From the IMG/VR virus record IMGVR_UViG_3300025687_000165, positions 1-34,099 of that record: a DNA stretch of 34,099 nt. One strand, given 5' to 3'. Shown here one piece after another: positions 2,949 to 29,100 of this stretch. This DNA comes from a virus. The notes below the pieces were generated by a model. The model was not told where the DNA came from and made no database searches. It was given only the letters and a program-made list of their open reading frames with translations. Numbering within the stretch: the stretch's first letter is position 1; each line of letters begins with the position of its first letter. Both the position numbers and the translations under genes were made by a program.

Positions 2949-3721
2949 TTCATGTCCTTTAATAGATATTCCATATAGGAAACAGCAAGAGTTGACATAT
3001 GATAAGAAGCCATAACGTGGTCTGGGTAAGCCCATGACCATACTAATGGTGGCTTACTTAAATTAGTAGCTCTATTCCACATGTGAGGTAGCTCAGCATG
3101 AAACCATAGTTTATCGCCCTTAAGATACTTAACCATTGCATTTTGAGAAAGTCGATGGTCAAGTATATCAAGAGTTGCATTCCAAAATATCCCCTTTCTC
3201 TTACCGCATCTAAGTTGAAAAATCATAGAAACTAATACAAGATGCAGTTGATATCCACTCCAAGCAGTTGCTACAGAAATAAGATTTTCAAGACCCTTAA
3301 ATGGGCTAAGGAGTTTCCACCATAGCCAACCTTTTAAACCAATAGTTTTCTTTACATTAACTCCACTAGCATACAGTGCATCGCCAATATCTAGCCAGGT
3401 TCCAGGCCTTACATGAGTTCTTGAGTCACCAGTAGGTGCAATCTTGCCTGTTCTAGCAATGTACTTAGCGACTTTTTCTAGCGTATCTGTTTTAGGATCA
3501 CTCATAGATCCAAGCAAAAAGCCTGCCAACATATCTCGACTAGTACCATGACTATAAGGCGAGTAACTAGCTTGTGCTTCTTCTTCATTTCTCCATAATC
3601 TACCATCTTTATCTACGCATCTATTTAAAGCTTCTATCCACTCTATGCCTGCCACATCTGCCATCATACCGATGTATAAAGTGGCGTCACCATACAGATC
3701 ACTAGGAATTAGGTGTTTCAT
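2945..3721 (-). CDS. Hypothetical phage protein, 258 residues
   Basis: A tryptophan-rich, probably all-helical protein. Notable segments are G-T-S-R-D-M-L-A-G-F-L-L-G-S near residues 58-71, an R-T-G-K-I-A-P-T-G-D-S-R-T segment near 90-102, and alternating amphipathic helices to the end. The spacing of the S-R-D and G-D-S-R elements recalls proteins with repeated helical hairpins, but I cannot assign a family. It overlaps the GMP reductase-like gene by ATGA, so the two are translated together, yet nothing in it points to nucleotide metabolism. Confidence 0.75.
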   Translation of the reverse strand: MKHLIPSDLYGDATLYIGMMADVAGIEWIEALNRCVDKDGRLWRNEEEAQASYSPYSHGTSRDMLAGFLLGSMSDPKTDTLEKVAKYIARTGKIAPTGDSRTHVRPGTWLDIGDALYASGVNVKKTIGLKGWLWWKLLSPFKGLENLISVATAWSGYQLHLVLVSMIFQLRCGKRKGIFWNATLDILDHRLSQNAMVKYLKGDKLWFHAELPHMWNRATNLSKPPLVWSWAYPDHVMASYHMSTLAVSYMEYLLKDMK

Positions 3722-4686
3722 CGCGTTCCGTTCTCCTTAATTGTTGAACTAGATATCCTAACTAATTTAGCTGATTTCTTGAACTGTTCTGCTGTATAGG
3801 CGCCACTATAGCTAAAAGCTGATTTAAGGCCTGCTAGAAGTACTTCTAGAGTTTGGCTTGTACGCTTCACAGGGTGGTTGTAACGAATTGTCTTAGAGAT
3901 CCCTTCTGGAGCTCTATGAGATGATTCTTTGCCATTTGAGGAATATGATTCTTGAGAGGCAGAACCGGCATATGACATAGGAGTAACACACTTGTCTGTG
4001 TAAGCAAGTAGTTTACCTGTCATAACCATGTCTGCACCGGCTGCTAAAGCTTTTGCTATATCTCCACTAGATTCCATTCCACCATCAGCAATAATCTTAG
4101 TCTCTGAATGATCTGCCCAAAACACTTTATCTTTTACAGTATCAAGAATGGCTTGCAGTTGTGGATACCCGTGACCAGTCACCAATCTAGTAGTGCATAC
4201 GCTTCCTGGTCCTATGCCAATCTTAATTCCATATAAAGGCCTATATTTATGGAATAGAAGTCTCATAGGCCACTCAATAAAGTTTCCTGCTACTAGCCTA
4301 AGATTAGGAAACTTAGCTTGAGCAAACTCTATGAAATCTGACATCTTTCGACTATATCCATGAGCAACGTCAATTACCACAATAGCATCATCTTTAACTT
4401 TAGCTAGCGCTTCTAATCGGTCAGCTTCAAAACCAACTGATACCCAAGGTTCTATACCTTCGTTAAGAAGAGTACTAAACATAGAAGCATTTTCTTCGAC
4501 TGGCATAAATCGATGAAGACAACCAATTTGATTAAACTTAGCCATCTCGCGGCACATATCGATACCGGTAATAGATGCCATATTAGCAGAGATAATCAGG
4601 TTGTCCGTATTAACTTCAGCTCTTGATTTGATGTAAGAGAACTGAGGCTTAATAAGAACATCATCAAAGGTCAGTAACGTTTCCAC
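3718..4686 (-). CDS. guaC: GMP reductase-like enzyme (IMPDH/GMPR family)
   Basis: This 322-residue TIM-barrel enzyme belongs to the IMP dehydrogenase/GMP reductase family. The N-terminus F-D-D-V-L-I-K-P near residue 7 and S-R-A-E-V match GMP reductases. The loop G-I-G-P-G-S-V-C-T-T-R at 157-167 carries the predicted catalytic Cys164, and A-D-G-G-M near 200 forms the phosphate-binding region. The C-terminal H-R-A-P-E-G and L-A-G-L-K-S-A-F-S-Y-S-G-A are closer to GuaC than to IMPDH, and there is no CBS domain. GMP reductase converts GMP to IMP with NADPH. Slightly shorter than the usual 345 residues. It lies beside a deaminase gene, suggesting nucleotide-pool remodelling. Confidence 0.85.
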   Translation of the reverse strand: METLLTFDDVLIKPQFSYIKSRAEVNTDNLIISANMASITGIDMCREMAKFNQIGCLHRFMPVEENASMFSTLLNEGIEPWVSVGFEADRLEALAKVKDDAIVVIDVAHGYSRKMSDFIEFAQAKFPNLRLVAGNFIEWPMRLLFHKYRPLYGIKIGIGPGSVCTTRLVTGHGYPQLQAILDTVKDKVFWADHSETKIIADGGMESSGDIAKALAAGADMVMTGKLLAYTDKCVTPMSYAGSASQESYSSNGKESSHRAPEGISKTIRYNHPVKRTSQTLEVLLAGLKSAFSYSGAYTAEQFKKSAKLVRISSSTIKENGTR

Positions 4687-11394: not shown

Positions 11395-11868
11395 TTAGCC
11401 AACCAGGTGCTTGAGGTGTTCTGGGATCAGGTCAGAGTTCACTACTTTCTTAGCTTGAACCATCTTCTGTGACTTGACCTCTGCCAAGCGAGCATCAATC
11501 TCAGCTTGGATAGCTTCTTGTGACTCTGCATCTGCTAGGGAGAGGAGCTTCTTGAGCTCTCGAATCACTGGGTCACCTGAGCCAGCTCTTGAACCTGGGT
11601 TCTTAGCTTCATACTTGGTGCCACCATTGAGTCTAGTGTCTTTGCGAAGCCAGTTGTTGACCAAGCCGATGACGTAAGTCCTAGTCTTCTGCTCAGTATC
11701 ATACTTGGCTTTTGCTGCATCACTGAACTCTGTGTCTCCACTCAGGATGGACTGAGTGACTACATCCACTACTTCTGATCTCTGCTCCTTAGTGAGACTG
11801 ACTGGACCATCAAACTCACCAATAGTGCTGAGAACTGCTTGAAAAACTGACTCTTTCTGATTAAGCAT
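11395..11868 (-). CDS. NPGSR-type phage protein, paralog A
   Basis: The ATG at 11868 (MLNQKESVFQAVL) has AAGGAG before it and matches the start of paralog B at 13470; an in-frame ATG at 11916 lacks a site. The 157 residues are mostly helical and contain L-R-K-D-T-R-L-N-G-G-x-K-Y-E-A-K-N-P-G-S-R near the middle, an R-E-L-x-K-L-L helix and the end L-I-P-E-H-L-K-H-L-V-G. The motif is familiar to me from early-region proteins of several phages, but no function is known to me. Promoter and terminator elements flank it. Confidence 0.85.
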   Translation of the reverse strand: MLNQKESVFQAVLSTIGEFDGPVSLTKEQRSEVVDVVTQSILSGDTEFSDAAKAKYDTEQKTRTYVIGLVNNWLRKDTRLNGGTKYEAKNPGSRAGSGDPVIRELKKLLSLADAESQEAIQAEIDARLAEVKSQKMVQAKKVVNSDLIPEHLKHLVG

Positions 11869-11929
11869 AAGTAACTCCTTAAAATAAGTTTTGCTAAAGG
11901 TGAATGGCTCATCCATTCACAACTATAAT

Positions 11930-12996: not shown

Positions 12997-13470
12997 TTAA
13001 CCAACCAGGTGCTTCAGGTGATCTGGGATCAGGTCAGAGTTAATCACCTTCTTGGCTTGGGACATCTTCTGCTCTTTCACTGCAGCAAGTCTGCTATCAA
13101 TCTCAGCTTGGATAACTGCTTGCTGCTCCTCGTCCACATGACTCAGCAGCTTCCTCAGTTCCCTCACTACCGGGTCAGTGGATCCAGCTCTTGAGCCAGG
13201 GTTCTTGGCTTCATACTTCTCACCACCATTCAACCTGGTGTCCTTCCTCAGCCAGTTGTTGACCAGACCCACACAGTAAGTCCTGACCTTCTGCTCTGTG
13301 TCATGCTTAGCCTTAGCATCTGCTGAGAACTCAGTATCACCACTCAGGATGGAAGCAGTCACCAAGTCAACTACCTCTGACCTCTGCTCCTTGCTCAACT
13401 GTACAGCACCCTCAAACTCACCAGCAACACTCAAAACTGCTTGAAACACTGATTCTTTTTGGTTCAACAT
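12997..13470 (-). CDS. NPGSR-type phage protein, paralog B
   Basis: The ATG at 13470 follows AAGGAG and gives a 157-residue protein with the same length and start (MLNQKESVFQAVLS) as paralog A; most positions are identical, including N-N-W-L-R-K-D-T-R-L-N-G-G and K-N-P-G-S-R-A-G-S. Differences cluster at surface-type residues of the helices. The bases before both ATGs are also alike (AACTTATTTTAAGGAG), so the duplication included the leader. Function unknown. Confidence 0.85.
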   Translation of the reverse strand: MLNQKESVFQAVLSVAGEFEGAVQLSKEQRSEVVDLVTASILSGDTEFSADAKAKHDTEQKVRTYCVGLVNNWLRKDTRLNGGEKYEAKNPGSRAGSTDPVVRELRKLLSHVDEEQQAVIQAEIDSRLAAVKEQKMSQAKKVINSDLIPDHLKHLVG

Positions 13471-13515
13471 ACTCAATCTCCTTAAAATAAGTTAACTATC
13501 AAAACTAATCAACCA

Positions 13516-13526
13516 TACAATCTGTC
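13516..13526 (-). promoter_or_regulatory. ACAGATNNNA element, copy K
   Basis: The minus strand reads GACAGATTGTA, with the ACAGAT core 50 bases upstream of the ATG of paralog B and preceded by TTTG. It overlaps the stop codon of the 27-residue micropeptide. Confidence 0.4.
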
Positions 13527-13608
13527 AAACAAGCAACCCAACCAAACCAAACAGACTGAACAGAGTAACCAGCTTAATGAATCCATCTAACAATAAGAAC
13601 TGTTCCAT
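13525..13608 (-). CDS. Membrane micropeptide, 27 residues
   Basis: The ATG at 13608 follows GAGGAGAGAG and encodes MEQFLLLDGFIKLVTL and then FSLFGLVGLLV: one transmembrane helix of about 18 residues to the end. An in-frame ATG at 13647 would add 13 residues (MEQILCICMRREI), but the site near 13608 is better. It precedes NPGSR paralog B in the same unit. Confidence 0.55.
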   Translation of the reverse strand: MEQFLLLDGFIKLVTLFSLFGLVGLLV

Positions 13609-13632
13609 AATCTCTCTCCTCATACATATACA

Positions 13633-13643
13633 TAGAATCTGTT
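13633..13643 (-). promoter_or_regulatory. ACAGATNNNA element, copy H
   Basis: The minus strand reads AACAGATTCTA, with the ACAGAT core 29 bases upstream of the micropeptide ATG at 13608. It is followed by TGTATATGTATGAGGAG. Confidence 0.5.
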
Positions 13644-13667
13644 CCATACCCTAGAGCTAGGGAGTAG

Positions 13668-13736
13668 TAAGATCTGTAGGGTGGGCCCACAGATATCCAC
13701 TACCCTCAAGGAGGGTACTGGTACCTAAAATCTGTT
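13668..13736 (-). promoter_or_regulatory. Two ACAGATNNNA copies (L and I) with inverted repeats
   Basis: Copy L (ACAGATCTTA, 13668-13678) and copy I (ACAGATTTTA, 13726-13736) flank an inverted repeat and a hairpin (TACCCTC, loop CTT, GAGGGTA on the minus strand). Neither has a recognisable ORF start at 30 bases. They may drive the leader of the unit that starts with the micropeptide at 13608. Confidence 0.4.
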
Positions 13737-14009
13737 TGACTCCCTCCTCGCCCATTCTCTCTACCTACACTACCTACACGATACTACCCCCATCTACACC
13801 CCATCTTCTCAATGATCTCAACTACTTACCGTGTCTATGTACAAGTATATGTATGTATGTATTCCTACTCCTCTCTCCCCACTCCTCACCATGAGTTATA
13901 GTTCACTCTCCTATGAATCACATCTCTTCCCTCCCTACAGAAGAGATTGTCCCTCCCTAGAGTAAAGATGATCTCCCCCTCTAGAGAGATACTCATCTAC
14001 ATCCATCTC

Positions 14010-14063
14010 ATAAACATTCACCTCCTCCTATGTCTATAAAACTCACTTTTATAAACATTCACC
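14010..14063 (+). repeat. Direct repeat ATAAACATTCACC
   Basis: Two exact 13-base copies at 14010-14022 and 14051-14063, 41 bases apart (about four helical turns). A related ATAAACATC occurs on the minus strand near 10831-10839 in the other non-coding region. Such phasing would suit a DNA-binding protein. Confidence 0.55.
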
Positions 14064-14184
14064 CTTCCTCCCCCTACTACCCCAATGGCTAACCCAATAG
14101 GCCCACCCCCATAGGTACCCACTACCCTCACCCCTAGTATAAGGGTCCCTACCCCAGGTATCAGCTAGGCTCCCTTATCATCAC

Positions 14185-14232
14185 CAGGTAAGTTACCTGA
14201 CCTAGTTAGTCCTTCAGGACTAACTATCAGGT
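14185..14232. promoter_or_regulatory. Strong structured hairpin region
   Basis: ACCTGA, a two-base CC bulge and TAGTTAGTCC pair with GGACTAACTA and TCAGGT around a TTCA loop (14195-14232), a 16-base-pair stem. An overlapping alternative hairpin, CAGGTAA-G-TTACCTG at 14185-14199, is mutually exclusive with it. It lies about 45 bases upstream of the first plus-strand ORF. There is no T-run, so it looks more like an RNA switch, a protein-binding leader or an origin element than a terminator. Confidence 0.65.
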
Positions 14233-14250
14233 GAGTATCCTGGGGAGAAG

Positions 14251-14276: not shown

Positions 14277-14459
14277 ATGAGGATACCTTTTTTTAAGGTC
14301 AACTTGACCAGGATACTGCAACTCAACTGGTTCTTCATGTTTAGGTTGGGGTTGATGGATCAGTTTGACTACTTGGCTAATAGTGAAGTCATGGAAGAGT
14401 TCATGGTCATAGTTTCTTCCTTCTCTGCCTTGTGCCTGAATCTGGGGGTGGACCATTAG
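14277..14459 (+). CDS. Small hydrophobic-helical protein, first of tiny-ORF array
   Basis: The ATG at 14277 follows GGAGGGAAGG, a good ribosome binding site. The 60 residues begin MRIPFFKVNLTRILQLNWFF and contain amphipathic, leucine- and phenylalanine-rich segments without a clean membrane helix. A run of seven T lies in codons 5-7. The following frame starts at its very end. Unknown function; part of a chain of eight short overlapping ORFs. Confidence 0.55.
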   Translation: MRIPFFKVNLTRILQLNWFFMFRLGLMDQFDYLANSEVMEEFMVIVSSFSALCLNLGVDH

Positions 14460-14649
14460 GTATCTAGATTACTATCAAGCCCAGTACTGGCACTCCTACT
14501 GGATGAGGGAGATAGATCTACTTACTAAGTATGAGTCCATCTTGGTTCCCATAAATAATCAGGATATCTCTGAGTGCCTCTATGGCTTCTTGTGCTTGAT
14601 GACCTTCCTTAAGTTAGCTGATGTCTTATCTTCTTTACCTACCAAGTAG
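14455..14649 (+). CDS. Small ORF without standard start (ATT start or frameshift)
   Basis: The frame is open from 14440 to the TAG at 14647-14649 and looks coding (RYLDYYQAQYWHSYWMREID, then ECLYGFLCLMTFLKLADVL). No ATG, GTG or TTG lies near the beginning; ATT at 14455 follows GGGGGTGG, and the first ATG is at 14503 without a site. It overlaps the end of the preceding ORF in the +1 frame, so a +1 frameshift product of that ORF is an alternative. Confidence 0.4.
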   Translation: MRYLDYYQAQYWHSYWMREIDLLTKYESILVPINNQDISECLYGFLCLMTFLKLADVLSSLPTK

Positions 14650-14659
14650 TGAGTTATCT

Positions 14660-14857
14660 ATGTTATCTGGTGGATCACCTGAGGTTACTAGGTCTATGGA
14701 ACTAGCTGAATTGCTCTATACATATAAGAAATCAGAGAGTCAAACAGTACCTGACTTAGCTAAAGCTCTTCACTTGCTTAATGCTTGGGAAGCTCTTTAT
14801 CTTTTTAATTGCATATCTTGCTATCGTCTGGACTTGATCATAAGTAAAAAAAGCTAA
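14660..14857 (+). CDS. Small helical protein of the tiny-ORF array, 65 residues
   Basis: Start taken at the ATG at 14660 (weak GAG at six bases); a longer frame reaches back to 14621. The sequence MLSGGSPEVTRSMELAELLY is followed by a lysine- and serine-rich turn and a leucine-rich helix (LAKALHLLNAWEALYLFN) with two cysteines. No family recognised. Confidence 0.5.
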   Translation: MLSGGSPEVTRSMELAELLYTYKKSESQTVPDLAKALHLLNAWEALYLFNCISCYRLDLIISKKS

Positions 14858-14903
14858 TGATTAGTTATATTTATATAGCCCTAGGCGGGGATATCAAACC
14901 CAG

Positions 14904-14909
14904 TATAAT
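14904..14909 (+). promoter_or_regulatory. TATAAT box adjacent to a start codon
   Basis: TATAAT ends six bases before the ATG at 14916, where a transcript would be expected to begin. If used, the message would be leaderless. Confidence 0.35.
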
Positions 14910-14915
14910 ATATAC

Positions 14916-15032
14916 ATGGCTAATTCAGAATACCCACTCATAGTAGATCTAATATTGCTAGCTCATCAACTAGGTTTGACTACCATGGATTCAGTGATGT
15001 TGATCAGGACTAACTCACATGCCTCAAGCTAG
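14916..15032 (+). CDS. Tiny ORF, 38 residues
   Basis: The frame codes for MANSEYPLIVDLILLAHQLG and a polar end. It has no ribosome binding site but a TATAAT box directly before it. The core L-I-x-D-L-I-L-L-A-H-x-L-G-L resembles the helix of its downstream neighbours. It overlaps the next ORF by 14 bases. Confidence 0.4.
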   Translation: MANSEYPLIVDLILLAHQLGLTTMDSVMLIRTNSHASS

Positions 15033-15171
15033 CTACTATATAACAATTGGTAGGTTCATAAGGTTACTGATTAAGCTTCAGCTAGTTGAGAAAAATATAC
15101 CTGATGCAGTAGATCTGTATGAATGCTGCATCAGGTATATTAAGACTTATGAAGAGAAATATGGACTCTAG
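15019..15171 (+). CDS. Tiny helical protein, 50 residues, array paralog
   Basis: The frame from 15019 encodes MPQASYYITIGRFIRLLIKL and then QLVEKNIPDAVDLYECCIRY with a basic and acidic tail. The R-F-I-R-L-L-I-K-L-Q-L-V pattern aligns with N-F-A-N-L-I-C-N-L-G-L-S of the next ORF. No clear ribosome binding site, suggesting translational coupling with the overlapping upstream ORF. Confidence 0.5.
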   Translation: MPQASYYITIGRFIRLLIKLQLVEKNIPDAVDLYECCIRYIKTYEEKYGL

Positions 15172-15313
15172 AACTTTAAGTAGAAACTTTGCTAATCTGA
15201 TATGCAACTTAGGGTTAAGCAGCTATCATCATACTAGTATAGAGATACTTAGCATCATGGTAGACATAAGGATCTATTGTGCTACACAAGCAAGAAGAAA
15301 AGCGCAAGTCTAG
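15161..15313 (+). CDS. Tiny helical protein, 50 residues, array paralog
   Basis: Start taken at the ATG at 15161, which follows AAGAG and overlaps the preceding stop. The protein MDSRTLSRNFANLICNLG then LSSYHHTSIEILSIMVDI ends in a basic tail (QARRKAQV). It shares F-x-N-L-[IL]-C-N-[IL] with the ORF at 15484 and has exactly the length of its upstream neighbour. Confidence 0.5.
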   Translation: MDSRTLSRNFANLICNLGLSSYHHTSIEILSIMVDIRIYCATQARRKAQV

Positions 15314-15494
15314 CTACAGTATTACGCTGGAGGCTAACTTAGCACTAGCTCACACCTTTGGTCTCATATTTGAGGTAGGTCTACTGTCTAGAGATATATC
15401 TATATCCGGTTTAACTCAGATCTCTAACTTGATCATGCTGATGGGATATCAGGGTTTCATCAACATGATAAAGGAGGAGATGGATGACCAGTGA
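15279..15494 (+). CDS. Small helical protein, 71 residues, GTG start
   Basis: The GTG at 15279 has AAGGA six bases upstream and no better start lies in frame. The N-terminus is basic (HKQEEKRKSS), followed by two hydrophobic, leucine- and isoleucine-rich helices (LALAHTFGLIFEVGLL; ISNLIMLMGYQGFINMI) and an acidic end. It overlaps the previous ORF by 35 bases. Confidence 0.55.
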   Translation: MLHKQEEKRKSSYSITLEANLALAHTFGLIFEVGLLSRDISISGLTQISNLIMLMGYQGFINMIKEEMDDQ

Positions 15495-15738
15495 CTGGGC
15501 TTGGTTACCTACATTCTATATGAACGCGGAAAATACTTTTACTGATTTCTGTAATCTACTATGCAATATAAAGATGATCTCATCATCAGACAGAACACTG
15601 ATGATATATAGCGTAATGTTTTTACCCAATGCTGCTGATTTGTACAGCTTGGGTCTCTATGATATCATGTCCTCTCTACCTATCAGGCTTCTTCTCTTGA
15701 AGCCTGAGCAAGAACTGAAGTCTTGGTACTCTGATTAG
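15484..15738 (+). CDS. Small helical protein, 84 residues, array paralog
   Basis: The ATG at 15484 follows AAAGGAGGAG, the best ribosome binding site of the array. Residues 19-45 (FTDFCNLLCNIKMISSSD) match the F-x-N-L-x-C-N pattern of the ORF at 15161. The second half is leucine-rich (DLYSLGLYDIMSSLPIRLLLL). It is the last of the array, 31 bases before the first structural gene. Confidence 0.6.
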   Translation: MTSDWAWLPTFYMNAENTFTDFCNLLCNIKMISSSDRTLMIYSVMFLPNAADLYSLGLYDIMSSLPIRLLLLKPEQELKSWYSD

Positions 15739-15769: not shown

Positions 15770-16561
15770 ATGGCAAACTCAAACAACTCAAACAACTGCT
15801 TCCCGCCGTTGTCCATTCCATCTACTATGCCTAACATCATACCTGACCCTTCTCTTAAGGGTGCTAGCTTTGATCAGATTCTTCAGAATCGCGGCATCAG
15901 GTTCCTTCATCGCAAGTCTGCTCCTTGTCCCAACGTAAAGAGCCTAGCGGATAACTCCCATAATCCTAACTGCCCAATCTGTGACGGCAATGGGATCTTC
16001 TACTATCAGGAGAAGGAGATAGTTGGAGTATTTACTGGTAACTCACTTCAGAAAAACTTCGAGATGCAGGGCATCTGGGAGATCGGGACTGCAACTGTCA
16101 CCCTTCCTACCGTTTACCCAGATGGTACTCAGGCTGAGTTCAATACTTATGATCAGCTAGTAATCATGGACTACACCGTTAGGATGTGGGAGCTTAAGGA
16201 GTACGAGCCTAGACTAGATGGTCTTCAGCAGATGAGATACCCAATAGTGAGCGTAGACTACATGGCATCTGCTATAAATAACGCACTCAATCCATATGAG
16301 CTAGGAGTAGACTTTAATCTGGTTAACGGCAAGATAGAGTGGATTCCTGGAAAGGAGCCTTCTTATGACTCTGTTAATGAGCGTGGTGAAGTGTTTGTGA
16401 TCAACTACTTCGCCAACCCAGTTTACGTAGTGCTCCAACATCTTAGAGAACTAAGAGTAACTCAAGAGCTTATTGGTGGCGTTAAGACACCCATCAGACT
16501 ACCACAAGAGCTCTTGATTAAAAGGGACTTCTTGGCCAATGAACCAGAACGACAGGGATAA
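15770..16561 (+). CDS. Neck or head-tail connector protein with zinc-like cysteines
   Basis: This 263-residue predicted virion protein has a polar N-terminal arm (MANSNNSNNCFPPLS), the segment R-G-I-R-F-L-H-R-K-S-A-P-C-P (Cys53) and C-P-I-C-D-G-N-G (Cys68, Cys71), which could bind a metal. The rest is mainly beta-stranded with conserved-looking D-Y-M and Y-F-A-N-P segments. Its place before the other neck and tail genes suggests a connector or head-completion role, by position only. Start has GGGAGG. Confidence 0.65.
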   Translation: MANSNNSNNCFPPLSIPSTMPNIIPDPSLKGASFDQILQNRGIRFLHRKSAPCPNVKSLADNSHNPNCPICDGNGIFYYQEKEIVGVFTGNSLQKNFEMQGIWEIGTATVTLPTVYPDGTQAEFNTYDQLVIMDYTVRMWELKEYEPRLDGLQQMRYPIVSVDYMASAINNALNPYELGVDFNLVNGKIEWIPGKEPSYDSVNERGEVFVINYFANPVYVVLQHLRELRVTQELIGGVKTPIRLPQELLIKRDFLANEPERQG

Positions 16562-16607: not shown

Positions 16608-18116
16608 ATGCCGGCGCCCGTAAGTAAAAAGCAATTAAGATATATCATGGCTATCTTGCACAGCAAGAAGCAAGGTACTTCTGCTCGTGGCGACCGAATG
16701 CCTAAGAGTGTTGCTGAAAAATATGCAAGCTCCGATACTAAAGAGAAAGAGCTCCCAGAATCAAAAGGCAAAGAGCTCCGCGGTGGCAAGTGGACTAAAG
16801 AGCACCACGAGAAACATAACAAGAAGCTTAATAAATCTCTACTAGCGTATATCTCTTCTATGAATCGTAAAGGTTCAGGCTGTCTTGTTGTTGATGAGAA
16901 TGGCTGTATTCTCTTAGGTATGCGTACTGACAATGGTCTATGGGCTACACCAGGTGGTCACGTAGATGAAGGCGAATCTTTTGAAGAAGCTGCTATCCGA
17001 GAACTAAAAGAAGAAACTGGTATGAAAGGTAAGATTGAGTCAGAGATTCTTCATGGACAATACGGTGGATACGAGTCTAAAACTTTCTTAGTTACTAAAT
17101 TCTCTGGCAACTACAAAGATTCCACCGAGATGCGTAGGCTTAAGTTCTTTCAGCCTCATGAAATCCCTTGGGATCGTTTGACCGACTATACTTGCGACGC
17201 TGTCTGTGCTCTAATCAGAGAAAAGCTAAGTAAAGCTAATGAGATAAAATGGATGTTGGCTGAAGAAGAACTTCAGAAAAACATCATCCGCAGCGGTAAT
17301 GCTCCTGGAAATACAGTATATGAGCTAACTCGTGGAGATGCTCTTAAGTTAGTTGGCAACGGAACATTTCGTATGTTGCGTGATCTAGTGGCAGACATGG
17401 AAGATGAGTCTTTCAAGAAAGCTAAGGTTGACGGCTACGAGATTCATATCAGAAAGCATGTGAACGACGTATACTCTGGTAGAGTGCTAGATGGTCAGAA
17501 GCAGATTCATCAGTTCACTAATCGCTCTTTGCCTGGTCTAGCGGCTGAACTCATGAGTGTTTTTGAGTGGTACTTGCCAGAAGATCAAGAAGAGCTAGAG
17601 ATACTAGATGAAGATGACCTTGATCCTAATGTTATCGAAGGTGGACTTAGTCAACTAGTCGATAATTACAAGAAGCATAACATCTCTAACATCTATGAAG
17701 AGATGGAAGATATTAGACGAGAGATTAGACATGGTAATGCTATTGATCTTCAGCAGTCAGAGATGAAGATCATGAAGCTATTCGATAAGTTAGAAGAGAC
17801 ACTACTTGAGACCGCTAATAAGCATAATAAACTTAGTCAAGATGCTGGAGTTGCAATTGATGAATTAGAATCTAAGCTACTTCAACTGCAACAAAAGGTC
17901 GAAACACTAGCTCAACAACCAACTAGTGTTCAAGCCTACTCTCAAAATCCAGCAAGTGAGCAAAAAGTTTATAATGAGTCCTACTCGTATCTTACTAGAC
18001 CCCAAGTTCAAATTGATCCTAGCGGCAGGATCACTATCACCTTTGGTTCGGACTGGCATAGCATGGACAGGAGCAACTTCCTCAAAGACATCCGAGCTAA
18101 AGCCATCAACAAGTAA
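16608..18116 (+). CDS. Nudix-hydrolase-containing virion-region protein
   Basis: A 502-residue multi-domain protein. Residues 1-75 (MPAPVSKKQLRYIMA) are basic and resemble the short DUF3008-type segment found at the start of some phage proteins. Residues about 88-210 form a Nudix domain with a full Nudix box at 117-139: G-x5-E-x7-R-E-L-K-E-E-T-G-M. The remaining 290 residues are acidic and contain a long coiled coil (about 385-440) and a C-terminal beta-like segment. Nudix enzymes cleave nucleoside diphosphates linked to another group; the substrate is unknown. The position in the neck cluster suggests that it is virion-associated or a maturation factor. Confidence 0.8.
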   Translation: MPAPVSKKQLRYIMAILHSKKQGTSARGDRMPKSVAEKYASSDTKEKELPESKGKELRGGKWTKEHHEKHNKKLNKSLLAYISSMNRKGSGCLVVDENGCILLGMRTDNGLWATPGGHVDEGESFEEAAIRELKEETGMKGKIESEILHGQYGGYESKTFLVTKFSGNYKDSTEMRRLKFFQPHEIPWDRLTDYTCDAVCALIREKLSKANEIKWMLAEEELQKNIIRSGNAPGNTVYELTRGDALKLVGNGTFRMLRDLVADMEDESFKKAKVDGYEIHIRKHVNDVYSGRVLDGQKQIHQFTNRSLPGLAAELMSVFEWYLPEDQEELEILDEDDLDPNVIEGGLSQLVDNYKKHNISNIYEEMEDIRREIRHGNAIDLQQSEMKIMKLFDKLEETLLETANKHNKLSQDAGVAIDELESKLLQLQQKVETLAQQPTSVQAYSQNPASEQKVYNESYSYLTRPQVQIDPSGRITITFGSDWHSMDRSNFLKDIRAKAINK

Positions 18117-19468: not shown

Positions 19469-19747
19469 ATGGTAAAGAAGAAGAGTATCAGAGAGCAAAT
19501 TAAAGAGATGGAAGTTAAGAGTAGGCAGCAAGCTATCGAAGCAGCTCCAGCACCAGCTAAGCCTAAAGAACCAGCTGCTATTAGCTTTGACCAGTGGTGG
19601 ATGGTAGCTTCTAAGAAACTTAAGTTAAAACCTTGGCTTAAAGAAGTTATTGCCGCTGACTTCAAGGCACGTGGCCTCTCTAAAGATGAGAAGGAAGAGT
19701 CTTACAACCAAGCACTAGAGAAGTTTGGCTATAAACTCCCTAAATGA
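19469..19747 (+). CDS. Small basic protein, 92 residues
   Basis: The N-terminus is charged (MVKKKSIREQIKEMEVKSRQ), followed by an alanine/proline linker (APAPAKPKEPA) and a compact C-terminal domain F-D-Q-W-W-x-x-A-S-K-K-L-K-L-K-P-W-L-K-E-V-I. From memory a similar L-K-L-K-P-x-x-K-E domain occurs in small proteins of other phages near neck genes. It overlaps the homing endonuclease gene by ATGA. Confidence 0.65.
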   Translation: MVKKKSIREQIKEMEVKSRQQAIEAAPAPAKPKEPAAISFDQWWMVASKKLKLKPWLKEVIAADFKARGLSKDEKEESYNQALEKFGYKLPK

Positions 19748-20778
19748 AACACTCTGATTTCCTTTACAGGAACAACAGAAGATTCTACCGGTATTCTTGT
19801 GACTCATGTAACTCTGATATGGGTTACATGAGACCTTATAATGCAACTCTTGTTCAACATTCATGTCGATCATGCAATGCAATTCCCAATCCCTCTCCAT
19901 CAAATGTAGATACTAAAGACTATCAAGATAAGCATAATGCTAGATACTACAGAACTAGCTGCATAAGTTGTGGTGACTTTAGAGGTTACTTACCTATAGC
20001 AAAACATGCTATTAAATGTCGTAGGTGCACCAAGAATAAGAATCTCGACATACTAGAGAAAGACGGTGTTTCTGCCAATGACTTCGTGATTAAGAAAGAT
20101 AATAGAAAAAAGTATAGAATGACTTGCTTAGACTGTGGTGCAGACAGAGGATATCAGAGACTATATCGCTATGGTTCTGGCTTGTGTAAGAGTTGTGCCT
20201 CTATAAAGTTTAACTCTGGCAAAACAGTGAGTGAAGAATCAAGAAAGAGAATGTCAGAGAATAATTGGATTAAGAAGTTAGCTAAAGAAGATCATCCATT
20301 TTTTGGTAAATATCATTCAGATGAAACTAAGAAGAGGATAGCAGAAAAGCAGAAAGAGTATTGTAAAAATAAGGGTAATCAATTTAATTTAGGCAAATCA
20401 AAAGGACGGCATCGATGGACCACAATACAAAAGCTATCTGAAGCTAACTCAGGTAGAGAACCTAAGTGGAAAGGAAGAGTATTCTTGTACGATGGACCGA
20501 TAGGTAGATTTAAGTTAAGAAGTTCATATGAGTTAGCTTATGCTAATTGGCTTGATAGTAAAGGAATTAGTTGGAAGTATGAGCCTAATTTTAGGTTATC
20601 AGATGGAAGATCATTTAGTCCTGATTTTCAACTAAGCACAGGTGAGATAATAGAAATAAAGGGTTTTTGGACAGATAAGGCAAAGGTTAAATGGGAGATG
20701 TTCTGTTTAGAGTTTCCCGATCTCAAGAAGACTGTTTTGATGAAGGAAGACCTTCAAAAGATAGGATTGAATGTTTAA
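19744..20778 (+). CDS. Homing endonuclease with zinc fingers and PD-(D/E)xK nuclease
   Basis: This 344-residue protein has three C-x2-C...C-x2-C modules (Cys19/22/41/44, 73/76/92/95, 128/131/148/151), then NUMOD3-like DNA-binding motifs (G-K-T-V-S-E-E-S-R-K-R-M-S; G-K-Y-H-S-D-E-T-K-K-R-I-A) and a C-terminal nuclease with S-S-Y-E (Glu263), P-D-F (Asp294) and E-I-K (Glu304, Lys306). It should cut a specific DNA site to promote its own spread. It lies as a free-standing gene between neck and sheath genes. Not an intron: both neighbours are complete. Confidence 0.85.
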   Translation: MKHSDFLYRNNRRFYRYSCDSCNSDMGYMRPYNATLVQHSCRSCNAIPNPSPSNVDTKDYQDKHNARYYRTSCISCGDFRGYLPIAKHAIKCRRCTKNKNLDILEKDGVSANDFVIKKDNRKKYRMTCLDCGADRGYQRLYRYGSGLCKSCASIKFNSGKTVSEESRKRMSENNWIKKLAKEDHPFFGKYHSDETKKRIAEKQKEYCKNKGNQFNLGKSKGRHRWTTIQKLSEANSGREPKWKGRVFLYDGPIGRFKLRSSYELAYANWLDSKGISWKYEPNFRLSDGRSFSPDFQLSTGEIIEIKGFWTDKAKVKWEMFCLEFPDLKKTVLMKEDLQKIGLNV

Positions 20779-24011: not shown

Positions 24012-24039
24012 GCTCTTTAATATCTCGTAAGGTGAATAT

Positions 24040-24645
24040 GTGGCTGGACTTAAACCATTCTTTATTACTGGCAGTACTGCAATAATAAAAGTTGATGGTA
24101 AAGTCATAGCTTATGCAACTAATATTTCTGGCCAAATCTCTGTCAATCACGCTTCTCCTCGTGTGCTTGGCAGAGCAGAAGTAGAAGTTCATCAACCGCT
24201 CTCTTACGACGTCTCTGGTTCTCTATCTATCATCAAGTATGCCCAAGGTATTCAGAATTTTATAGGTGCCAATCGTAGCCCTGTATTGTCCGACAATGAT
24301 GGCAATGGACCAGGCTCTATGTCACCTGACTCCGGTTTTTTCTCTAGCGCACTAGGTCTAAATCAATTTACTAATGGGACTAATAACGCAGCAGAAGAGG
24401 CTTTTAATCCCTATTTCTTTTTTCAATCTAAGCAGTTCGATATAGAGATTTTTCAAAAATCAGATAATGGTAGAACTCAAGATATAGCTCCCGTAATTCG
24501 ATTTAGAGACTGTCGCTTCAGCAATCTTCAGTTTGCTCTACAAAAAAGAAGTCCACTAGTGTTAAACATGAATTTTGTATCTAGATACTATGATGATGAT
24601 ACATTAATCGCTAGAGGATCTGGAGTAGGACAGGAGTTTAGCTGA
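24040..24645 (+). CDS. Tail tube-like protein 2 (paralog)
   Basis: A 201-residue protein with GTG start after AAGG. It aligns with the preceding protein at the N-terminus (M-A-G-L-K-P-F-F-I-T-G-S-T-A-I-I-K-V-D-G-K-V-I-A-Y) and in H-Q-P-L-S-Y-D-V-S-G-S-L-S-I-I. The two differ in a longer loop (about 85-135). It may be a tube variant, an adaptor at the baseplate or a tube terminator. Confidence 0.65.
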   Translation: MAGLKPFFITGSTAIIKVDGKVIAYATNISGQISVNHASPRVLGRAEVEVHQPLSYDVSGSLSIIKYAQGIQNFIGANRSPVLSDNDGNGPGSMSPDSGFFSSALGLNQFTNGTNNAAEEAFNPYFFFQSKQFDIEIFQKSDNGRTQDIAPVIRFRDCRFSNLQFALQKRSPLVLNMNFVSRYYDDDTLIARGSGVGQEFS

Positions 24646-25271
24646 TGACTATAGACAATAAATTAAAAAGCCCACCAAATTTAGCAGCAGGTGTCGGAGA
24701 TTCACTGATATCTGGTTTACAAAATTCTGTAAAATCAGCTATTGCTTCTGCCTATCCTCTAAATGATTTTGGTAAATACTTTAGTGGTTTAAGAGCTATC
24801 ATTAAAGTCAATGATCAGCTGTTTGGCTTCGCTTTTGGGGTTTCCTTGAATTTAAAATTTGACACCGAAGAGATTTGGACCGTCGACAATTATCAAGCTT
24901 ACGAGTTAGCACCAAGAAAGATGATTGCTACTGGTACCATCTCTATGTTTCATATTCCTGGAAAAGGACCAGGAATACAGAATGTCCATCCCAATGGTTT
25001 TTCCTTCCTAATGCATAGATATATCTCTCTCGATATATCTGATCAGATGACTGGTGAAAGTATCTTTAAGACAGAAAAGGCGATGATTACTGGTCGTACT
25101 CAAGATGTCGACGCCAACAAGATATCTACCATAAGACTTGAGTGGAAAGCAATCGAGTGGGTTACAGAGAATGATCTAAACAATATTGTAGAAGGTCGTG
25201 ACGATCCTGCATCAGAAGGTCAAAACTCTGTTCCGCTACTCAATTCTATTAAAAAATCTTTTTTAAAATAG
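24645..25271 (+). CDS. Tail tube-like protein 3 (divergent paralog)
   Basis: This 208-residue protein overlaps the preceding stop as TGATG. It keeps the pattern G-L-R-A-I-I-K-V-N-D-Q-L-F-G-F-A, A-P-R-K-M-I-A-T-G-T-I-S-M and an R-x-x-D-V segment, but has a longer N-terminal arm (SPPNLAAGVGDSLISGLQ). Third member of the tube-like group; it could be a tube initiator or a head-side adaptor. Confidence 0.6.
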   Translation: MTIDNKLKSPPNLAAGVGDSLISGLQNSVKSAIASAYPLNDFGKYFSGLRAIIKVNDQLFGFAFGVSLNLKFDTEEIWTVDNYQAYELAPRKMIATGTISMFHIPGKGPGIQNVHPNGFSFLMHRYISLDISDQMTGESIFKTEKAMITGRTQDVDANKISTIRLEWKAIEWVTENDLNNIVEGRDDPASEGQNSVPLLNSIKKSFLK

Positions 25272-25273
25272 AG

Positions 25274-25279
25274 TATAAT
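25274..25279 (+). promoter_or_regulatory. Late-type TATAAT box before chaperone gene
   Basis: TATAAT preceded by GAG lies 34 bases upstream of the ATG at 25308, just after the stop of the third tube-like gene. A TTAAAAAA...TTTTTTAA inverted repeat overlaps that stop. Confidence 0.45.
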
Positions 25280-25307
25280 CTTATCGTAATAACTTTTTGG
25301 AGTTAGC

Positions 25308-25709
25308 ATGTATAAGAGCTTACCTAAACTTGAGAAGACCTTTACCATCGATCTAGTTGGCGAGACTACTGGGCTAGAATATAAAGGTCAGTTTACCGCT
25401 AAGTGCGTACTCTCTATCAGAGATCGTCAAGCAATTGAGCTTGAGAAATCTAGACTAACTGCTGACTACGCTAACCCAAGCGGAACCCTATTTGCTATCG
25501 CATCTATGGTAGCTACGCTGCGAGCTAAGCTAGTTGAGTTTCCTGATTGGTGGAAAGAGGTTGGTCTAGGCTCAGATCTTCTAGATGAAAATGTGCTTAT
25601 TGAAGTATATGAAAAGACAGAAGATATTGCGAAAGAATGGAAAGAATCGCTTAAGAAGCAAGCTGGCGAGGAAAAAGATAAAGAGGGAAACGAGAAGAAG
25701 GGGAAGTAG
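25308..25709 (+). CDS. Tail assembly chaperone, short form
   Basis: A 133-residue protein placed between the tube-like genes and the tape measure, where phages encode a tail assembly chaperone. It has a compact domain (about 1-105) and a lysine- and glutamate-rich end (EEKDKEGNEKKGK). Near its end lies a canonical slippery heptamer, G-GGA-AAC, from which -1 frameshifting adds the next frame. Ribosome binding site GGAG. The domain itself I do not recognise with certainty. Confidence 0.8.
   Translation: MYKSLPKLEKTFTIDLVGETTGLEYKGQFTAKCVLSIRDRQAIELEKSRLTADYANPSGTLFAIASMVATLRAKLVEFPDWWKEVGLGSDLLDENVLIEVYEKTEDIAKEWKESLKKQAGEEKDKEGNEKKGK
25685..25691 (+). promoter_or_regulatory. -1 ribosomal frameshift site GGGAAAC
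   Basis: In the zero frame the heptamer reads G-GGA-AAC and so fits X-XXY-YYZ. It closely resembles the GGGAAAG of the phage lambda G/GT frameshift. It is followed by 155 open codons in the -1 frame. The zero frame stops 18 bases later. Confidence 0.85.
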
Positions 25710-26158
25710 AGAGCTTCTCCACAACTGACCTAATCCAGCGGATTGCCAAAAATAACTTCGATCCACAAAGTGAGTTCTACAACTACCACTTTTTACACAT
25801 GTGGTGGTGCAAAAAATATAATCGCCCATTGAAAGATCCTCTACTACAAGAATACTCATACGAAGAGCTTTTGTATGAGATGTCAGCATATTCTGAGCTA
25901 CAGAAATCGCTCGATAAGCTCGCTGAAGAAGAAGCTGATAGAATAGAAGATGAGAAGTATGAAGAAGATCTAGCGTGGGCAGAGCAGATGGAGAAGGAGT
26001 TTGCAGCACAGCAAGCTCCTGCAGATACTCCTAAACCTACTGATCCTTCACTTGATCCCGCTAATATTGAGTGGATGAATAAGGCGATTCAAGAAGAGAA
26101 AGCTAGACTAGGCGAAGATTTTGGCGAAGATTTATCATTTAGCATGGAAGATGAGTAA
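25691..26158 (+). CDS. Tail assembly chaperone -1 frame extension
   Basis: The -1 frame is open from before the slippery site and has no ATG or other good start until 25799, well inside. Translated by frameshift it adds 155 residues (total about 283). It begins after the heptamer with R-E-E-G-E-V-E-S-F-S-T-T-D and includes F-Y-N-Y-H-F-L-H-M-W-W-C-K-K-Y and an acidic C-terminal coiled coil. The ATG at 25799 is probably not the true start. It overlaps the tape measure ATG as TAATG. Confidence 0.8.
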   Translation, partial: REEGEVESFSTTDLIQRIAKNNFDPQSEFYNYHFLHMWWCKKYNRPLKDPLLQEYSYEELLYEMSAYSELQKSLDKLAEEEADRIEDEKYEEDLAWAEQMEKEFAAQQAPADTPKPTDPSLDPANIEWMNKAIQEEKARLGEDFGEDLSFSMEDE

Positions 26159-29100
26159 TGGCTGACGATATTAAAACTAAGCTAAGCGGAACTTCTCGCA
26201 TAGAAGAAGCCATTGCTAGAAGAGAGAAAGCTGAGTCTTCTCTAAAACAGTCATATAAAGCTCCAGAAGCTGCTATAGAAAGATTAAACAGAGAAGTAGA
26301 GAAGAAGGAGCGGCAACTAAAGGCTTTAGTACTCACTAAAGCTGATTTGATTAATAAAAAACAAGAGAAAGAGATAGCTGTTCTGGACGCTCAAATACGA
26401 CAAGTATCTGACGAGATCTCACAATATAGAAGCGGTGGCAGCATGATTGGGGTTGAGCTGCATAAAGCTCAAGTTGCTAGTCAAGCTGAAAGAATGGCAA
26501 AGGTATTTACTTCTGAGTCCGGTTTCTATAGATCTATTGAATCTTCTCTAGGTGTTAAACAAACTTCATCAGATGTTGCACAAGCAAGGCGCTTTGAGTC
26601 AACTAGGCAACGTGCTGTATCTGTAGGTTTATCGCCTACTGCCTCGACTTTTGATATGAGAAGAGATGTCGAATATAAGAAAGCATTGCTGGAGACAGCA
26701 GCACAAAGAGTAAAGAGCTCAGCTACTGCAGTTGCTACCACTAACATCTTGTTAGAAAAAGAGAAATCGGGAGTTATTACTCCAGAAGAGCAAGATAGAT
26801 TGCAAGCTGCTAGACAAGAAGCTGGCATGTTTTCTACGAGAGTAGCTGGCAGAAATCGTTTGGTACAAAGTCTTGCTCAATCAGAAGAAGCTATTGGGTA
26901 TAGAAAAAGATTTGGTTTAGATGTAGAGTCTAGGTTTAGCAAGGCTCAAGGAGTGGCTTCTAGAATAGAAGATATAGCAGAATCTAACTTGATTAAGAAG
27001 GAAGTTGGTCAAGGAGCTTATAGTAGAGAACAGATTGAGAAGGATCTAGCACAGACAGGTAAGCAGCTGCTAGACACTTTTGCCAAACTTAGGGATGCCT
27101 TCGAGAAGGGTAGCTCAAATGCTGACGCGCTTGCTTCTGAGTTCGAGGATCTGCAGAAGCAATACAATAAGCAAGAAAAAATCAGCAGAGAGATTGATAG
27201 ACAGCCAGCTCAAGACATTAATAGGCTTGGCTTTATCGGTAGACAAATTGGTGGTTTTGGAAGTGCCTTGTCTGCGGTTGGTGCTGCTTACAGCTACGAA
27301 AATGTAGGAGCTCAACAAGCTCTGATGGGCAACCGCATCGGTGCTGCTCAAAGAACAAATCAGATCAATAGAGATATTATTGCTGGTGCTGGTGGTGATT
27401 ATGCAGCCATTAGGCGATTCATCACAGATCAGGCTAGGATGGAGGCAGACTACGCAACTCAGATAAGGGGTAAAGCTAGACTAGGTGAAGGTATTCAGTT
27501 AACAGGCAGCGGAGCACAAACAGCTGCTGCTGGTATAGGTGCTGCTCAAAACTTTATGACTGCAGTAGGAGCGGGCACAGCTATTGGCGGACCAGCAGGT
27601 GCAGCAAAAGCTTTATTAGCCAACCTAGGTTCAACAGCAGGTGAAGTAGCTGGACCAGCTGCGCAGTTTGCTACTCAGCTGTCTGATTTCAGATATCAAA
27701 ATAGAAGTATGTCTGCTGGTCTATACAGTGCTCAGCAGATGAGACAATATTTCGATACTGTCAACGAGCTTGGTGATTCCATGGGTCAGCAAGGTCTTGA
27801 TTTTATAACTCAGAGTGCTAAGAGATTAGTTGGTATTGGTGGTACTAAGTCAGCTAGACCAATGAGAGCAGCTCCTGCTACACTTGCTGAGTCAATGCGC
27901 AGAAATCCTTACGCTGTATCGATGCAAACTTCTGAATCTTTTAATGTTGCCAATCCCTTTCAAGACATGAGTTCGCCTCAAGCTGTACTTGAAAATTTAG
28001 GCAACTCTTTTGAGTCGCTAACTAATGCTGTCCCAGAAGCTAGTAGAAGAGCGAAAGGTCAAAGCTTAGGTGTTGTAAATCCCTTAGCAGCCGTAGATAC
28101 TATGCCAGTAGCACCACCTACTCAAGATCTAACAGACATGCTTATAGAAGCTACTAGTGGTGATAAGTTAAAAGCTCTGCTAGAAGAATCAGGAGTGACA
28201 GAAAGTAGAGTTGCTAAAGCTCAGCAAGCCGCTGTTCAACTTGGCTCCTCTTTTTTTGGCACTCGCAACATGACAAATGAGGCTAAAAGAGATAGTTACT
28301 TAAGTAATTTGCGAAACGTATCTTCTTTAGAAGCAGCAGGTATAGTGGGTCAAGAGAAGTTCTATGGCATGCAAAGTCGCTTGATTCAAGCAGGTGCAGG
28401 TCAATCTGCTAAAGGTATCGAAGATATTATGAGAACTGCGATTGCAGCAGGCTTCACTGACTCACGATCTTTCGAGAAACTAGTAGATCTCACAGCACAA
28501 GTAGCTCAAAATACTAAAGATACTGCGATGGGCATCGACGTTACTGGTGGTGCTGCTTCTCTTATTGGCGGAATGGTTCAGTCACAAGATGAGTCTAAGA
28601 CGATAGAGCAAGCTTTAGCTGCAGCAGGCTCAACCGCTAACGTGCTACGTAGCACCATGACATCGCAAGACTTGTCACTTGGCAATGTGATGGAGATGGA
28701 TCTACTGTCTAGAGCAGTACCTAAAGCGAGTATGAGTCAAGTACAACTATTACAAAAAATGGGTCCAGAAGCATTAGCTGAGATGAATAAGCAATTTGCT
28801 GCTGGTACTGGTGAAGATTTTATTCGTAAAAATTACCCTGGATTAGAGGGTATCGTAACTAGTGCTCAACAAGCTCAGCAGATTTCTAGAATTGGCATTG
28901 GTACGTCTTTATTGAATACTCCAGCTGTCTACACAGCTCCATCTCTAATAAAAAAAGTGCAAGACATTATAGAAACAGGCAATATGCCTAAATTCGATAA
29001 AGACGAGTTAGCAGCACTTCAAGTTGCTGGTTATAGCCCTAATACTCTAGAAGGCGCTATAAAAGGTACTTTAAGACCACAAGATATTAAAAAAGGCGAG

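Follow-up and report, generated by a model that had tools for sequence, protein, structure and literature searches.

The window analysed here (the whole stretch of 34,099 nucleotides of IMG/VR virus record IMGVR_UViG_3300025687_000165) carries on its plus strand, at 14277-15738, eight tiny open reading frames (ORFs) which form an array belonging to an undescribed family of small proteins in a lineage of uncultivated myophages. Tiny ORFs abound in phage genomes and are often dropped by annotation; here, a large set of them makes up one family, under selection and found at the same place across the lineage. The best reading of the array, which we hold with moderate confidence, is that of an accessory host-interaction arsenal, acting in takeover or in anti-defence. 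The array ORFs and the two genes that border their interval are the following (p values refer to the external core profile described below, against shuffles):

12997-13476, minus strand: left border, conserved gene with a second copy at 11395-11916; homologues upstream of gp6.4
14277-14459, plus strand: array ORF 1, 60 aa, ribosome-binding site AGGAGGG, p 0.013
14503-14649, plus strand: array ORF 2, 48 aa from the first ATG, core ECLYGFLCLMTFLKL, without a clear ribosome-binding site, p 0.0066
14621-14857, plus strand: array ORF 3, 78 aa (ATG 14621) or 65 aa (ATG 14660), p 0.033
14916-15032, plus strand: array ORF 4, 38 aa, promoter-like GTATAAT upstream (14903-14909), p 0.0033
15019-15171, plus strand: array ORF 5, 50 aa, core YITIGRFIRLLIKLQLVEKN, 13.4 bits, p 0.0033
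15119-15313, plus strand: array ORF 6, 64 aa (ATG 15119) or 50 aa (ATG 15161), core SRNFANLICNLGLSS, p 0.0033
15279-15494, plus strand: array ORF 7, 71 aa, GTG start with AAGGA upstream, assigned from its position and open frame
15484-15738, plus strand: array ORF 8, 84 aa, ribosome-binding site AAGGAGGAG, p 0.033
15770-16561, plus strand: right border, SPO1 gp6.4-like virion structural protein, 263 aa (phrog_1004, E 3.2e-24; 27% identity to SPO1 gp6.4)

A preliminary description of this DNA had given the products 60, 64, 65, 38, 50, 50, 71 and 84 residues; the ORFs do exist, but the lengths of the second, third and sixth hinge on the choice of start, the second reaching 64 residues only with an ATT start at 14455 (48 with its first ATG, at 14503). 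Ribosome-binding sites, judged by eye, are good in ORFs 1, 7 and 8 and weak in ORF 6, and the remaining ORFs may be translated by coupling. The core lies close to the C-terminus in ORF 3 (LFNCISCYRLDLIISKKS), and in ORF 7 a stretch is core-like by eye only (HTFGLIFEVGLLS).

The window ORFs resemble each other weakly. ORFs 6 and 8 (15119/15484), the closest paralogues, align clearly above shuffles (z 6.7), and the next-best pairs are 15019/15484 (z 3.3) and 14503/15484 (z 3.1). The evidence for a common family comes from an external core profile, built solely from the arrays of other phages (loci L007, L009/L082, L060, L054 and L075) with no window sequences, its seed motif having been picked by eye and never out of the window. 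With this profile, seven of the eight ORFs score above composition-matched shuffles (each p <= 0.033; Fisher p 2e-8), the sole exception being ORF 7 (p 0.43), and the array supplies the four highest-scoring small ORFs of the whole window, with ORF 5 at the top (Mann-Whitney p 4e-5, the comparison being with 142 other small ORFs). This comparison supports the suggestion, made in the preliminary description, of an array of related tiny genes. The ORFs at 15019, 15161 and 15484 indeed contain the pattern noticed there, F-x-x-L-[IL]-x-x-[LI]-x-[LM], and the only two occurrences of F-x-N-L-x-C-N in the six frames of the window both fall inside the array. Nevertheless, a strict motif regex matches two of 16 plus-strand ORFs of the window versus 0.99 expected, so that the regex alone would not have revealed the membership. 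Regarding the other profiles, the first one (18 seeds) recovered mostly its own seeds, and for this reason shuffle tests on unseen sequence were used; the window matches of profile A5 are not independent, since A5 includes window sequences, and a scan with profile A2 returned only two loci, both already known.

Relatives of the gp6.4-like gene were sought in IMG/VR, where a single sequence yields seven and an alignment 80 loci. Two relatives are near-identical to the window across the array; in one near-identical relative, the identity is 89% at window positions 24027-26532, versus 98% up to 23663, with the array almost unchanged. In many others, the interval from the conserved leftward gene to gp6.4 is packed with tiny overlapping ORFs that share one common core (consensus roughly FLxxLxxLgLiS, followed by a second helix). 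Such runs lie ahead of gp6.4 in L007, L009/L082, L060, L054 and L075, reaching, by our own count, about 24 genes in L009 and 22 in L060; L054 has a second run of tiny ORFs on the opposite strand. The signal extends to 33 further loci, in which 28% of 450 upstream tiny ORFs reach p<0.05, versus 4.2% of 48 downstream ones, and 19 of which individually reach Fisher p<0.01 (the loci are not all independent, as some are relatives of one another). In L036 and L047, a lysozyme and an HNH gene fill the interval instead of a clear array. One phage of 172 kb has 37 family matches at E <= 1, most of them within a single stretch of about 13 kb and some scattered, and the same searches gave no family member in SPO1, in Mx1 (169.6 kb) or in an Exiguobacterium phage. 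A tblastn search of cultured phages with two array proteins gave matches only at E about 2, and the closest cultured matches, SPO1-like phages and Myxococcus phage Mx1, are distant ones. A search of an open-access library brought up no paper on arrays of this kind.

The hosts are probably Bacteroidota, because relatives sit in contigs labelled as Saprospiraceae and Cytophagales metagenome-assembled genomes (viral contigs can be mis-binned). When 118 genomes of the phylum to which the Cytophagales bin belongs were compared with the family, the bin itself matched on its phage contig only, and one other genome gave a single borderline match.

In position, the window array agrees with those of its relatives, lying between the conserved leftward gene and gp6.4. 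Of 41 loci, 32 have homologues of the left-border gene ahead of gp6.4, invariably on the minus strand and with the nearest copy at a distance of 2.3-7.2 kb; the remaining nine show none within the 1.8-10 kb of upstream sequence examined. This gene is conserved across the lineage and often duplicated at the same place, and the two window paralogues (11395-11916 and 12997-13476, both on the minus strand) contain NNWLRKDxRLNGG...KNPGSR and match nothing in Pfam or PHROGs. The stretch at 13500-14250, which separates the divergent gene sets, holds no clear gene and is strongly biased towards C over G (GC skew about -0.43 to -0.5). As one would expect of an accessory region, the interval varies in content among relatives, and in some of them it also includes a PagL-like (lipid A deacylase) gene, a phage lysozyme or an HNH gene. 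The PagL-like gene (L069, 7857-8348; a similar ORF lies at L071, 3397-3882) suggests a Gram-negative host. Additionally, most relatives have two small Cys-rich leftward genes, possibly zinc-binding, between the array and gp6.4 (L087, 9286-9785 on the minus strand, and equivalents); none was seen there in the window. Elsewhere, the window encodes a 502-aa protein with a NUDIX domain in its N-terminal part (16608-18116), an endonuclease with a NUMOD3 motif (19744-20778) and an IMP dehydrogenase/GMP reductase-like gene (3718-4686).

Structure prediction, also proposed in the preliminary description, gave the same helix-turn-helix hairpin for a member from L009 and for window ORF 8, whose alignments share rows. 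In the ORF 8 model, a helix at residues 7-28 is followed by a turn and a second helix at 34-46, the hairpin having a pLDDT of 86-96; both AlphaFold models have a pTM of 0.50, and the local hairpin alone is trusted. Conservation in the core is restricted to hydrophobic positions. The initial impression that these proteins match no known family is borne out by searches of Pfam, PHROGs, PADLOC and PDB sequences, which returned nothing significant for array members (best E among 60 members 0.022 for Pfam, 0.038 for PHROGs and 0.034 for PADLOC), and by Foldseek, with no significant fold match in PDB or BFVD. A likeness to RNA polymerase helices was set aside, the matches being weak and such as any helical hairpin gives.

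Concerning expression signals, the 35 bases that precede array-interval ORFs hold GTATAAT at about nine times the density seen within these ORFs on the same strand, and in many relatives the sequence also stands directly upstream of gp6.4; over the window as a whole it is not enriched. It reads as a candidate phage promoter. A perfect 16-bp inverted repeat with a 16-base loop (15094-15141) lies within the overlap of ORFs 5 and 6 and, as RNA, folds far better than shuffles (z -5.5); long inverted repeats are absent from most other arrays checked and are no general feature of them. A long imperfect hairpin (14181-14246, z -2.3) is found shortly before ORF 1.

Are these ORFs genes at all? They could be remnants of a larger gene in decay, or untranslated open frames, as might be thought from the missing ribosome-binding sites of several window ORFs, their heavy overlap and their weak mutual likeness. 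Against this stands the purifying selection that acts on the array orthologues of relatives: ten orthologous groups, drawn from five loci, give a pN of 0.36 and a pS of 0.81 (many pS values are saturated, so that the contrast is at least as strong as the ratio shows), and the differences at codon positions 1, 2 and 3 number 1164, 837 and 1645, the third position dominating (L066/L067 were left out of these codon counts, one pair being out of register). The relatives of the window are not at a distance useful for selection, and its ORFs are judged via family membership, the external profile matching seven of the eight. A single interrupted gene in relatives, named in the preliminary description as the finding that would speak for decay, was sought and not found: the orthologues are separate tiny ORFs, and none of the 90 six-frame ORFs with a core contains two. 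A single gene read through frameshifts was also considered and rejected; the window ORFs each step by +1, yet by our own reading those of L009 and L060 step both ways. We regard fragments or untranslated frames as very improbable and, from the sequence comparisons, as refuted for the family; for the window, it is membership in the family that speaks against them. Adjacent members resemble each other more than non-adjacent ones do in two arrays (L054, p 0.002; L009, p 0.009), which is the pattern left by tandem duplication; in L060, L007 and the window, this signature does not reach significance.

On the host-interaction reading, the array would be a variable accessory locus of the lineage, each tiny ORF giving its own small protein, in whose core a short turn joins an amphipathic helix to a second helix. 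The family would have grown by tandem duplication followed by fast divergence outside the hydrophobic core, and a single hairpin scaffold could thereby carry many different surfaces. Produced during infection, the hairpin proteins would each bind a host target, acting on host proteins as takeover or anti-defence factors. The anti-host or anti-defence role raised in the preliminary description fits the variable accessory interval but finds no match in known families: anti-CRISPR, anti-defence and defence families give no recurrent match (each is matched by at most one of 60 members), and no array member matches any known takeover family. More tentatively, and with a probability of about one in three in our judgement, the two-helix scaffold may be a general platform of which a genome holds dozens of duplicated copies, each with a new surface for a different host protein. 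Whether a small scaffold can be re-aimed at many host targets is a general question that these arrays make testable.

Somewhat unlikely, in our estimation, is a role internal to the phage, in which the hairpins would serve as regulators, assembly helpers or RNA-binding helical bundles by pairing mutually or with one phage partner that they all share. Short amphipathic hairpins often require a partner for folding, conservation is limited to hydrophobic positions, and GTATAAT upstream of some array ORFs and, in many relatives, of gp6.4 makes co-expression possible; still, a common partner alone fails to explain the copy number and the sequence variation between relatives, and no fold match supports a specific role. 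Distinctly less probable is that the tiny proteins are capsid cargo, which a shared element would direct into the head and which would enter the cell together with the injected DNA, there to block host nucleases. Such a role would suit a shared element in otherwise divergent sequences and a variable locus adjoining a virion gene, and it has a precedent in T4 Ip1-3, which have only an N-terminal leader in common and each block a different GmrSD nuclease (PMC12373910). The array core, in turn, starts 0-89 residues past the first Met (median 13.5), which leaves no fixed N-terminal leader, and with its predicted hairpin looks like the folded part itself.

Among known systems, the host-interaction reading can be set beside that of SPO1, a related myophage whose host-takeover module is also a run of small genes, with a presumed action on the host. 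In SPO1, gp6.4 follows gp6.3, with no takeover module at the position of the array and no family member anywhere in the phage. Mx1, which among cultured phages gives the strongest match to the gp6.4-like protein and to the tail sheath, likewise has no array beside its gp6.4-like gene and no family member in its 169.6 kb. With the ip loci of T4-like phages, the array shares small, fast-diverging accessory proteins, a variable locus and one shared element (PMC12373910). In the T4 proteins this element is an N-terminal packaging leader, whereas in the array proteins it is a core at varying positions, predicted to be the fold itself, and the lack of a fixed N-terminal leader makes the T4-type reading, that of injected internal proteins, the poorer fit; the array paralogues are, moreover, far more numerous than those of the T4-like ip loci.
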